Positions 10,962 to 31,452 of a stretch of 31,452 nt of DNA are shown in pieces. Both the position numbers and the translations under genes were made by a program. The DNA is from a virus. The notes under the pieces were generated by a model. It worked only from the letters and a program-made list of their open reading frames with translations. It did no database searches and was not told the origin of the DNA. The stretch covers positions 1 through 31,452 of IMG/VR virus record IMGVR_UViG_3300021957_000174; one strand, given 5' to 3'. Position 1 is the first letter of the stretch, and each line of letters opens with the position of its first letter.

Positions 10962-10995
10962 AGATCACCTCACAGGTATAGTTCTATGCTTGTCA

Positions 10996-11023
10996 ATTAT
11001 ACACCATCAATAATGTGAAGCAA
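10996..11023 (-). promoter_or_regulatory. Sigma70-type promoter for the packaging/late operon
   Basis: Minus-strand TTGCTT (11023-11018), a 16-base spacer, then TATAAT (11001-10996). The -10 box is a perfect consensus. Transcription would begin near 10989, about 28 bases before the ATG at 10961. Confidence 0.6.
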
Positions 11024-11122
11024 TTATTTGCGCTTTTCGATTTGATCTCTAGGTCGTGCGGTTAAATCGTCACTAGCTATCACGCCTAAAGAAATAAGCG
11101 TAAAAATAATAATATAAATCAT
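11024..11122 (-). CDS. Possible 32-residue membrane peptide
   Basis: A short frame starting MIYIIIFTLISLGVIA with a hydrophobic first half and a charged tail (RPRDQIEKRK). It could be a small inner-membrane peptide. The ribosome site is poor (GAGAC at short spacing), so translation is uncertain. It lies between two candidate promoters. Confidence 0.35.
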   Translation of the reverse strand: MIYIIIFTLISLGVIASDDLTARPRDQIEKRK

Positions 11123-11159
11123 AATGTCTCTAACAGGTAGGGGGTTTATAACAGGCGCA

Positions 11160-11189
11160 ATTATAGAGATTTGCTAGGTTTAGCACCAA
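11160..11189 (-). promoter_or_regulatory. Upstream sigma70-type promoter
   Basis: Minus-strand TTGGTG (11189-11184), an 18-base spacer, then a perfect TATAAT (11165-11160). It lies about 170 bases upstream of the packaging operon's other promoter, in the same direction, and would also transcribe the small 11024-11122 frame. Confidence 0.5.
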
Positions 11190-11289
11190 TGCTGTGTAGT
11201 TATAGGGGTCATGTAGATAAGTGATCCGTTGTCGGCACAGGTGGATCAGTCCTGCTAATCGGGGGGAGGATAGCCCCTGCCTAAAGGTA
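11190..11289. other. GC-richer non-coding stretch with inverted repeats
   Basis: Part of a 328-base stretch (10962-11289) without a confident gene. It contains TGATCC/GGATCA arms around a 15-base loop (about 11221-11247) and a GGGGGG/CCCC pairing (about 11262-11277). No T tract follows, so it is not a standard terminator. I do not recognise a tRNA or riboswitch. Confidence 0.4.
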
Positions 11290-15168: not shown

Positions 15169-15428
15169 AAGGCTCTGCGCATCCACATATCAGATAGCTT
15201 TTCCTGCGGTGTTTCTAAAGTAGGCATAAAGTGTGTCTTTTTTCTCTCGCTTCTAGGCTTTGGAAATATTTTATTATCGTCAATAATCGTATGCTTACCG
15301 ATTCTATTTCTCATGGCTGTTTGTGTAACGCCTGCTATCTCTGAAAGTTGTTTATAAGTATATAGATTCCCATGCACTAACTTGTCTGATTTGCCTATGT
15401 ATTTAATCAGCTTAATATTTTTATGCAC
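15165..15428 (-). CDS. Small HTH protein of the replication segment
   Basis: 87 residues starting MHKNIKLIKYIGKSDKLVHG. The segment YTYKQLSEIAGVTQTAMRNR (residues about 24-43) looks like a helix-turn-helix. The basic middle (FPKPRSERKKTHF) supports DNA binding. It lies between the O/DnaT-like gene and ninB, in the place lambda has P, but shows no resemblance to P or to a helicase loader that I can see. It overlaps the upstream stop by eight bases. Confidence 0.7.
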   Translation of the reverse strand: MHKNIKLIKYIGKSDKLVHGNLYTYKQLSEIAGVTQTAMRNRIGKHTIIDDNKIFPKPRSERKKTHFMPTLETPQEKLSDMWMRRAL

Positions 15429-15786
15429 TTCTTATTTCTCCATCGTAGTAGTAGCCCAGTTTCGCTAAATAATATTTCTTCATTTGCTCAACTTGGCTGG
15501 GGTTTACCCAAGTTATATCTGCCATCTGCATCTCTACTGTTTTGCTTCGCAAGTTAGTTTTAAACTTTCTGGCTTGAGGAGAGCCTCCCTTATCTTGCGC
15601 TCTAGCTAACCATGAATTTATAAATCTTTTAATACCTTGCTTCGTTTTACGTTTAGCTGGGTTAGCGTCACACCATGATTCCATTGCCATCAATTCTTGA
15701 TGTACGTCAATTGCAGGGTAGGTTCGTTGCCATGCAAGTATATCTCCCTGATCTGGCGTGTAGTTTTCACCTGTATTAAGAAGCAT
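15421..15786 (-). CDS. Replication initiator C-terminal-like protein (O/DnaT-like)
   Basis: 121 residues. The pattern WQRTYPAIDVHQELMAMESW, then NPAKRKTKQGIKRFINSWLA and RAQDKGG is the C-terminal module of phage replication proteins (lambda O-like, DnaT-like), which recruits host helicase. There is no DNA-binding domain on this polypeptide. The HTH protein immediately upstream could supply it. AGGAGG eight bases from the ATG shows separate translation, and the two genes overlap by 11 bases. Confidence 0.75.
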   Translation of the reverse strand: MLLNTGENYTPDQGDILAWQRTYPAIDVHQELMAMESWCDANPAKRKTKQGIKRFINSWLARAQDKGGSPQARKFKTNLRSKTVEMQMADITWVNPSQVEQMKKYYLAKLGYYYDGEIRSA

Positions 15787-15997
15787 TAGAACCTCCTAGC
15801 GAATATTCTGCAATACTGCACTTTTCATCATATCTATTTAGCACAGTGATCATCTTTTTGTTAATTAAATGACCTGATTCTTTTAGGTCGTAAATCCTAC
15901 TGGCCAACCTTGTTATTCCTAACTCATTAAAAGCATTTAATGTTGTTATGGTTTTGCCAGTTTGTAAATATTCCAAAATTCTTTCTTGCTGTGTCAT
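15776..15997 (-). CDS. Winged-helix/HTH protein (HTH_39-like)
   Basis: 73 residues. The pattern QQERILEYLQTGKTITTLNA, then GITRLASRIYDLKESGHLI and a Tyr-Ser-Leu end matches the small HTH_39-type winged helix of phage proteins. It is the first gene after the 427-base control region, with AGGAG six bases before the ATG. Position suggests that it binds the origin or the nearby promoter and works with the downstream O/DnaT-like protein. That partnership is inference. Confidence 0.78.
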   Translation of the reverse strand: MTQQERILEYLQTGKTITTLNAFNELGITRLASRIYDLKESGHLINKKMITVLNRYDEKCSIAEYSLGGSNAS

Positions 15998-16060
15998 GCT
16001 TAACTCCTATGGCTCGGCAAGCCTCGCCTGTAATTTTAAAAAATTTATTTGTATATATTT

Positions 16061-16117
16061 AAGTATATATTCACTTACTTTTTGTAAACATTTGAGTATA
16101 TAAACACCCACTTTTTC
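16061..16117. repeat. Imperfect direct repeats in an AT-rich control region
   Basis: Two 24-base repeats at 16061-16084 and 16094-16117 share 18 of 24 positions (consensus AGTATATAnnCACnnACTTTTT) with a period of 33 bases, about three helical turns. A further GTATATATT unit lies at 16051. A minus-strand TTTACA (16088-16083) lies 15 bases before a TATACT. The site may be an operator, promoter or replication origin iterons. Confidence 0.55.
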
Positions 16118-16144
16118 CCCTTTAACTACGCAAAGCTAAATTTT

Positions 16145-16300
16145 CGATCTGAGGGCAAAGCAACTCAGCGGCTTAGTCGTAATCGTATCGGATATCCAAC
16201 CTATCCATCAGCAGAAACCGATCTGCTTTTGGGGCTATGTCTGGAGGGTCAACCACGCTCTGATGTTTTATTTAAGGTGTTCATCAGCCTCTAGCCCGAT
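16145..16300. other. Structured non-coding stretch
   Basis: No frame longer than 11 codons. Inverted repeats include CTGAG/CTCAG near 16150-16167, AGCAGA/TCTGCT at 16210-16227, and nested GGGCTA/TAGCCC (16232-16297) around CTGATG/CATCAG (16260-16287). This could be a folded leader RNA of the replication operon, such as an antitermination site, or DNA-binding sites. I do not recognise the family. Confidence 0.45.
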
Positions 16301-16324
16301 TACTAGTGCGATAAGAAAGGTATA

Positions 16325-16353
16325 AAGACAATATTTAGATATGTTATTATGAT
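16325..16353 (+). promoter_or_regulatory. Candidate plus-strand promoter for a small RNA
   Basis: AAGACA (16325-16330), a 17-base spacer, then TATGAT (16348-16353), five of six matches to the -10 consensus. It points against all genes and lies just before three hairpins and a T tract. Initiation would be near 16360. Confidence 0.5.
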
Positions 16354-16357
16354 CTTT

Positions 16358-16427
16358 CTGTATCCGCACATACAGTATTACTCATCTCGATGAGTTTGTA
16401 AAGCCCCTTAATTGGGGCTTTCTTTTA
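16358..16427 (+). ncRNA. Candidate OOP-like small RNA
   Basis: About 68 nt of three consecutive hairpins: CTGTAT/ATACAG (16358-16375), CTCATC/GATGAG (16381-16394) and AAAGCCCC/GGGGCTTT (16400-16421), the last followed by CTTTT. The 3' end overlaps the stop codon of the HTH gene on the other strand. Lambda OOP RNA has the same location, between cII and O, opposite in direction and of similar size. Expression is inferred. Confidence 0.5.
16400..16426 (+). terminator. Hairpin terminator at the 3' end of the HTH gene
   Basis: Eight-base-pair stem AAAGCCCC/GGGGCTTT with loop TTAATT. Read on the plus strand it is followed by TTTCTTTT. On the minus strand it ends in TTTAC, a weaker tail. It may act in both directions, ending the recombination operon and the plus-strand small RNA. 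Confidence 0.7.
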
Positions 16428-16619
16428 CAGCTTAATAAATTCCTCCAAGCCGTAACCTAGCGCATCAGATACCCTAATAGCAGTATCTAGCCTGCAATTT
16501 TTCTTACTTCGCCAGATATTTATCTGCTGGCGGTGTACGCCTAACATCCTTGATAACTCTGCGCTACTAATCCCTTTCATTTGTTGTGCTACTCTTAGCG
16601 AGTTTCCAAAATCTAGCAT
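16425..16619 (-). CDS. Cro/C1-type HTH regulator
   Basis: 64 residues from ATG 16619, with AAGGGTGG five bases upstream; a GTG at 16628 is possible. The HTH_3 fold is clear: LRVAQQMKGISSAELSRMLG then VHRQQINIWRSKKNCR and LDTAIRVSDALGYGLEEFIK. It has no C-terminal cleavage or oligomerisation domain, so it resembles Cro or a cII-type regulator more than CI. Likely targets are the palindrome at 16381-16394, the repeats at 16061-16117 or the two repeated promoters. No second, divergent repressor gene is seen. Confidence 0.85.
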   Translation of the reverse strand: MLDFGNSLRVAQQMKGISSAELSRMLGVHRQQINIWRSKKNCRLDTAIRVSDALGYGLEEFIKL

Positions 16620-16681
16620 TTTTGCCACCCTTATGTTAAATTTGCGTTGATGCTTTCCCCGAGCATCTCTCCTATGGTTTA

Positions 16682-16708
16682 CCCTCCCCTTCGGGGGAGG
16701 GGTTTTTT
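16682..16708 (+). terminator. Strong UUCG-loop terminator facing the plus strand
   Basis: CCCTCCCC, loop TTCG, GGGGAGGG, then a final G and six Ts. The C(UUCG)G tetraloop and U6 tail make a textbook terminator for plus-strand transcripts. On the minus strand the hairpin is followed by TAAACC, so it should stop leftward transcription poorly. Confidence 0.8.
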
Positions 16709-31055: not shown

Positions 31056-31452
31056 TTATGCTCCTACTAGGGACTTAGAGTAATTACCGCCCCTCATTCT
31101 AGCATCAGCCACCGCCTGTTTAGTAGCGTTTGCAATCTGTGGCATCAGTGTAGCTATCTCAGCACGTACGGTTTGCTGTACGCCTGTACTTACATTAATA
31201 GTCTGGTTAATAACAGTACCGCCACCGCCTAATTGATTGTTTGGGATAATAGAGCCTGATTGATTAGGCACAAACATTTCTGCACCGCGCTCACCGACCA
31301 TGTAGGGCTGTCCTGCCTGTACTGAACCGCCTATAGCCTTCATGGAAAAAGGATCACTTGATCCCAGTGCAGAGCCATAACCAAACTCTCTGTTGGTTGC
31401 GCTTTGCCCACCAAAAGCACTTGTTATAGCTCCGAATGCCGCATCGACTATG
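31056..31452 (-). CDS. Tail tape measure protein, C-terminal part
   Basis: Carboxy end of the gene that begins at 1596. It includes the motif GGSVQAGQPYMVGERGAEMF, commonly seen near the C terminus of lambda-type tape measure proteins (GxYxVGExGxE). The stop is at 31056-31058, and the next tail-tip gene starts one base downstream with an AGGAG site that overlaps this gene's end. The frame matches the left fragment exactly when 31289 is subtracted from the coordinate. Confidence 0.92.
   Translation of the reverse strand, partial: IVDAAFGAITSAFGGQSATNREFGYGSALGSSDPFSMKAIGGSVQAGQPYMVGERGAEMFVPNQSGSIIPNNQLGGGGTVINQTINVSTGVQQTVRAEIATLMPQIANATKQAVADARMRGGNYSKSLVGA
31290..31452. repeat. Terminal overlap, right copy
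   Basis: Right-hand copy of the 163-base overlap with the window start. The two mismatches suggest that the reads came from a mixed population or that an error sits near a contig end. Removing one copy gives a circle of about 31,289 bp. Confidence 0.95.

Follow-up and report, generated by a model that had tools for sequence, protein, structure and literature searches.

The DNA analysed here (referred to as the window) is a 31.45 kb virus record, taken over its entire length of 31,452 nucleotides, in which all clear genes are on the minus strand. Its ends carry a repeat (positions 1-163 and 31290-31452, identical at 161 of 163 bases; the record is classed as linear), so that the record looks complete and probably represents a complete genome of about 31.29 kb. 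The region of interest is a gap of 427 nt without coding sequence (15998-16424), which separates a Cro/C1-type HTH gene (16425-16619, minus strand, with an ORF running from a GTG at 16628; PF13443, E 1e-7) from a winged-helix gene (15776-15997, minus strand; PF14090). The winged-helix gene is preceded by a Shine-Dalgarno sequence (SD) and is the first gene of the operon located behind the leader RNA described below. The sequence-only reading had assigned an O-like protein to this position; the observed domain does not bear this out, and a weak match to a replication initiation family (phrog_1032, E 1.7e-5) is found one gene further on (15421-15786). The 16 kb downstream contain a single strong minus-strand terminator, behind the major capsid gene (4113-4094). 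On the plus strand, there are exactly two strong terminators in the whole genome, T1 (16400-16421) and T2 (16682-16701). The second longest ORF-poor gap of the genome measures 328 nt (10962-11289); a hydrophobic ORF of 32 aa (MIYIIIFTLISLGVIASDDLTARPRDQIEKRK) may lie in it.

The gap holds a candidate plus-strand small RNA, sRNA1, that had been noticed from the sequence alone. It is one part of a compact control region in which two better conserved RNAs, a second small RNA (sRNA2) and the leader RNA, adjoin it, both missed by that first reading. Relatives of the locus were gathered by protein and by DNA pattern, and the distinct loci were split into 34 "extended" ones, with the sRNA1 unit, and 53 "compact" ones; these counts are inflated by relatedness among the sequences, and at least one locus (L096) is listed as compact only through a mismatch to the search pattern. 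Nearly every copy of the leader RNA has a small HTH gene on its upstream side. The closest cultured phages, as judged by the terminase, are the Pelagibacter phages HTVC202P, 026P, 111P and 112P, along with DSL-LC06 (51-55% identity; 52-55% for the terminases of the Pelagibacter phages). The leader RNA is absent from them. That the phages analysed here are of marine type is a guess based on these closest cultured phages.

The probable minus-strand leader RNA and its 3' flank

The leader RNA is the main novelty of this locus: a large, previously unlisted RNA whose conservation extends over more than 90 distinct phage sequences. Its core of approximately 197 nt (16110-16306, minus strand) consists of ten helices including a pseudoknot, and the sequence from the window scores 219.7 bits with the covariance model. 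The architecture includes a long-range closing stem, P0 (GUNAUC/GAUNAC; 16303-16298/16184-16179), a three-way part formed by P1 (16296-16292/16237-16233), P2 (16287-16282/16265-16260) and P2b (16255-16253/16244-16242), the P3 helix with a conserved loop (16232-16231/16206-16205 and 16226-16222/16215-16211), P4 (16201-16200/16191-16190), and the P5-P6 portion (16168-16164/16153-16149 and 16140-16135/16126-16121, respectively). The pseudoknot spans 16169-16220 and joins the P3 loop, CGGUN (16220-16216), to NACCG (16173-16169).

When folded as a single sequence, the leader shows a z-score of -0.6, which does not reveal the structure; the structure rests on covariation. In the alignment of 48 distinct copies, with 47 pairs in the ten helices, 97.9% of the cells are paired, and changes on both sides are found in 31 of the 47 pairs, compared with 17.2 in shuffles (covariation score 0.430 versus 0.163). 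When the partners are slid by 1-3 columns as a control, pairing amounts to only 35-44%. The pseudoknot is paired in 99.2% of the cells, with both sides changed in three of the five pairs: the usual form is CGGU/ACCG, with UGGU/ACCA in L021 and L073 and CGAU/AUCG in L182 and L204. The wobble cells (73 G.U versus 3 A.C) indicate that the RNA is on the minus strand. The covariance model also matches divergent copies in L160 and L025-L030 (E about 1e-12), and those of L025-L030 likewise precede the winged-helix gene. Altogether, at least 96 distinct cores were collected, and the family is larger. Structural variants are present as well. L109 (8059-8274) and L212 (224-447) share one additional hairpin, about 19 nt long, that is inserted at P2b; L107 (2096-2279) and L169 (1099-1282) have shortened leaders without P5, in which GGC/GCC seems to replace the pseudoknot.

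The search of Rfam 15 in permissive mode with the window and eight other loci produced no relevant match to the leader RNA. No match was detected either with blastn against INPHARED (the region and two leader copies) or against PLSDB (one leader copy). When 84,980 cellular genomes were scanned twice by pattern, the first scan returned none and the second 17 loose matches, none of which is matched by the covariance model, and the literature searches found no description of such an RNA. A group I intron, tmRNA and tRNA were also considered, with no match in Rfam or by ARAGORN. An RNA of about 200 nt, with a pseudoknot and dozens of compensated pairs, for which neither Rfam nor the records of cultured phages and plasmids have an entry, shows that the control regions of common uncultivated phages contain large RNA elements that are yet to be described.

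A conserved minus-strand promoter is predicted directly before the RNA in both compact and extended loci. In the window, this putative promoter, P_minus, has the form TTTACA-N17-AATACT (from TTTACA at 16402 to AATACT at 16374, minus strand). Among the 34 extended loci, TTTACW is found in 33 and nATACT in 31, at a spacing of 17-18 and with near variants in the remainder; many compact loci likewise have a TTTAC-type -35 ahead of the leader RNA. Between the RNA and the next gene no terminator is seen; a conserved hairpin and an SD are present there instead. Because a conserved promoter precedes the RNA and no terminator intervenes before the next gene, the structured RNA is probably the leader of the downstream operon.

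The leader is joined by an AT-rich linker to the 5'-UTR hairpin GGC-GA-GGC-TT-GCC-GA-GCC, which is followed by the SD CCATAGGAG (16004-16028 together, minus strand). The strict form of the hairpin is found in 59 of 96 members, and the others mostly differ by one bulge. The tandem GA is retained in compensated variants, such as TGC-GA-TGC...GCA-GA-GCA and GGC-GA-AAC...GTT-GA-GCC. The hairpin and CCATAGGAG are kept irrespective of the identity of the next gene, which is often the winged-helix gene and often an accessory gene. The slot for accessory genes between the leader and the winged-helix gene (for example L002 3685-4257, L004 2549-2809, L005 3500-3826) is filled differently among the relatives, by a C5-methyltransferase-like gene, genes for 86-aa and 108-aa proteins, and others, with the SD hairpin constant. 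The linker of the window (16050-16120) contains two 28-bp imperfect direct repeats (ATTTAAGTATATATTCACTTACTTTTTG and ATTTGAGTATATAAACACCCACTTTTTC), one of which was lost in L002.

Candidate small RNAs on the plus strand

The predicted sRNA1 (16356-16426, plus strand, with a putative 5' end) comprises the hairpins H3 (CTGTAT-CCGCAC-ATACAG, 16358-16375) and H2 (ACTCAT-CTCG-ATGAGT, 16380-16395), and the terminator T1 (AAAGCCCC-TTAATT-GGGGCTTT) with its T-tract. The three hairpins followed by a T tract that had been noticed on this strand are confirmed: the segment 16358-16427 folds at -22.5 kcal/mol (z -5.1), which was matched by none of 200 shuffles. The tail after T1, TTTCTTTT, extends to the stop codon of the minus-strand gene, in agreement with the earlier description of a unit ending at the stop of a Cro-type control gene. 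The promoter had been described as -35/-10 boxes at 17-base spacing. Such a pair is present (AAGACA-17-TATGAT) but scores only 9 of 12, and sites of this quality occur in the region at chance level (19 found, 21 expected); better supported is the extended -10 TGTTATTAT (16342-16350), with TGNTANNNT at the same place in 33 of the 34 extended loci.

The stem of T1 (H1) contains, across the extended loci, 22 G.U and no A.C cells when read in the plus sense, and the T-tract is on the plus side. The arms of the upstream dyads are also kept in these loci, with 14 different stem sequences for H2 and 17 for H3 (the latter from automatically determined stems, some of them spurious). The conserved extended -10, the plus-sense wobble and U-tract of T1, and the retention of both dyads favour a genuine plus-strand transcript at this site. 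The conservation of the hairpins in relatives concerns the extended loci: the unit is missing from most of the 53 compact loci and, consequently, cannot be essential. Rfam, at both gathering and permissive thresholds, yields just chance terminator-type matches to the sRNA1 unit. In L083, tandem copies of TATAAGACACT (plus sense) are present upstream of the leader RNA, adjoining the plus promoter region.

This unit had been considered the only plus-strand transcription unit in the genome, which is wrong, given that T2 belongs to the more widely conserved sRNA2. The predicted promoter of sRNA2 is an extended -10, TGTTAAATT (16634-16642, plus strand), with TGNTANNNT in all 76 distinct regions, mostly as TGNTATATT. 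The RNA itself (16649-16708, plus strand) is predicted to consist of the hairpin S1 (16649-16667), the single-stranded CTCCTATGG (16669-16677), and T2 with six U residues. The same order, namely extended -10, a hairpin with a UUCCCC-type loop, CUCCUAUGG in most cases, and T2, is observed across the 76 distinct regions. sRNA2 is kept in about 80 loci and is better conserved than sRNA1. Of 84 loci, which include compact as well as extended ones, 80 have T2, with 5-7 T among the 8 positions on the plus side and nearly always 0-2 on the minus side. The S1 stem is paired in 95.7% of the cells with a covariation score of 0.685 versus 0.270 for shuffled alignments, although the counts of changed pairs and pair types are not above those of the shuffles. 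Read in the plus sense, S1 contains 28 G.U versus 1 A.C, which places the sRNA2 hairpin on the plus strand.

sRNA2 runs antisense to the Cro-type gene in its 5' region. On the minus strand, about 16629-16664, antisense to sRNA2 and within this 5' region, there is a possible 11-codon ORF (MLGESINANLT), which did not turn up in those compact relatives that were inspected. The CUCCUAUGG stretch, unpaired in the fold for the window, is complementary to CCATAGGAG at 16004-16012, the SD of the leader operon. The window contains CCATAGGAG twice, each time on the minus strand: at this SD and opposite sRNA2. The latter is too distant from the start codon of the Cro-type gene to be the SD of that gene. 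Among 88 distinct loci, CCATAGGAG is found at both sites in 54, at the sRNA2 site only in 16, at the leader SD only in 1, and at neither in 17, a distribution that is confounded by relatedness. When the duplex of the CUCCUAUGG stretch was evaluated against 46 gene starts, the best was the first gene of the operon (-19.6 kcal/mol).

Alternative explanations and proposed circuit

The main alternative to a plus-strand transcript at the sRNA1 site is that P_minus has its repressor operators in H2 and H3, and that T1 terminates the Cro-type gene's own mRNA. In the extended loci, H2 fills the spacer between the -35 and the -10 of P_minus exactly and H3 covers both the -10 and the predicted start; moreover, T1 lies directly behind the Cro-type gene. 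The 14 different stems of H2 include 194 Watson-Crick cells and zero wobble, a composition as compatible with an operator as with an RNA hairpin. The specific version in which the Cro-type protein binds H2 was rejected: L038 and L041, whose Cro-type proteins are identical over the part compared, share the recognition regions, yet their dyads differ, so that H2 is at least not an operator of that protein. Against the absence of a plus transcript speak the T-tract and the wobble pairs of T1, on the plus and not the minus side, and the near-universal retention of the plus extended -10 in the extended loci. On balance, this explanation appears unlikely. It is highly improbable that sRNA1 is a plain homologue of lambda OOP that silences the Cro/cII-type gene by antisense to its 3' end. 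The position between a control gene and a downstream operon, the length near 70 nt and the terminator at the gene end all agree with such a role, but the overlap is limited to the stop codon whereas OOP overlaps 52 nt of cII (PMC5869508), there is no Rfam relation to OOP, and the RNA that is antisense to the mRNA of the Cro-type gene is sRNA2 rather than sRNA1.

With regard to the structured minus-strand RNA, it seems improbable that it is not a leader and instead primes replication or is transcribed from an origin. It adjoins the gene with the weak replication initiation match, and a primer role was once proposed for OOP-type RNA (PMC3985674); however, there is no skew switch at the leader site, and a fixed hairpin and SD follow the RNA whatever gene is next. 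A role in trans for this RNA, be it as a small RNA or as an RNP component that is processed from the transcript, is rather doubtful. In compact loci, the predicted start is located a few nucleotides before P0, which would provide a tidy 5' end, but no terminator is present at the 3' end of the leader and its continuity with the SD hairpin is conserved.

The reading we prefer, and consider fairly probable from the comparison of sequences, is that of an RNA-based phage control region in which the leader operon transcribed from P_minus is faced by plus-strand small RNAs. What the sequences establish is the conserved architecture, the strand on which the leader RNA, the sRNA2 hairpin and each of the two terminators lie, and the shared complement of the SD; the promoters, transcripts and effects are predictions. 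P_minus, located just after the Cro-type gene, would start the downstream operon with the leader RNA, the hairpin and the SD CCATAGGAG; one or two plus promoters opposing P_minus would produce the small RNAs. Through its predicted pairing via CUCCUAUGG, sRNA2 most likely prevents, in trans, the first gene of the operon from being translated; in cis, it may act as an antisense RNA on the Cro-type gene, at its 5' region. In the extended subset, the sRNA1 promoter would fire across P_minus, with transcription stopping at the end of the Cro-type gene, and the most likely mode of action of sRNA1 is interference with transcription from P_minus, similarly to lambda pO, which lowers transcription from pR (PMC3985674). 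The leader most likely acts in cis on its own transcript, either on the RNA polymerase, by put-like antitermination, or on translation. With a single strong minus terminator downstream, the need for antitermination is not evident, and the lone terminator behind the major capsid gene is at most a slight hint of it.

Somewhat less likely than not is a further reading, in which large leader RNAs with a pseudoknot, such as this one, form a class of their own in phages, each with a co-conserved small anti-SD RNA, and the resulting RNA circuit sets how strongly the main operon is expressed, regardless of the accessory gene in first position. The leader and its paired sRNA2 would constitute a testable switch built of four short elements, in which mutation and compensation should shift expression predictably.

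Relation to known systems

The likeness to OOP that had been proposed for sRNA1 stands with respect to position and convergent transcription: as with lambda OOP/pO, a short RNA, here a predicted one, that is convergent to the main operon is located between a small control gene and the downstream genes and ends at a terminator. As to a transcript with a promoter and a terminator of its own, what is observed is an extended -10 and a plus terminator conserved in 33-34 loci. The likeness fails with respect to antisense complementarity, given that sRNA1 lacks the tens of nucleotides complementary to the coding 3' end of the control gene that would be expected of an OOP RNA. Unlike OOP, sRNA1 is present in only part of the family, and a second RNA covers the 5' side of the control gene. 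There is no sequence relation of sRNA1 to OOP, no Rfam match and no blastn match in phages. Control of the ColE1 RNA I type was rejected as well, the overlap of sRNA1 with the predicted minus transcript being just about 12 nt.

The leader RNA resembles HK022 put, an RNA of about 70 nt with two stem-loops (PMC9378689), solely in where it lies, a short way behind an early promoter and at the start of a long phage operon. Unlike put, it has ten helices and a pseudoknot within approximately 197 nt and not the two stem-loops.

The closest parallels to sRNA2 are the proteobacterial small RNAs with anti-Shine-Dalgarno (aSD) loops (PMC3927594), with which it shares a hairpin, a C/U-rich anti-SD stretch and a terminator. 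In Rfam, the segment 16647-16710 of the window matches anti-hemB (RF02837, 25.0 bits) and suhB/mmgR (RF00519, 18.9 bits) far below the respective gathering scores of 49.5 and 41, and the sRNA2 sequences of L045, L118 and L196 show no match to either family. Unlike these families, sRNA2 has CUCCUAUGG in a predicted single-stranded segment that matches a specific phage SD. An exposed stretch complementary to an SD is the general hallmark of anti-SD small RNAs, and sRNA2, as predicted, fits this type without being a member of the anti-hemB/suhB families.
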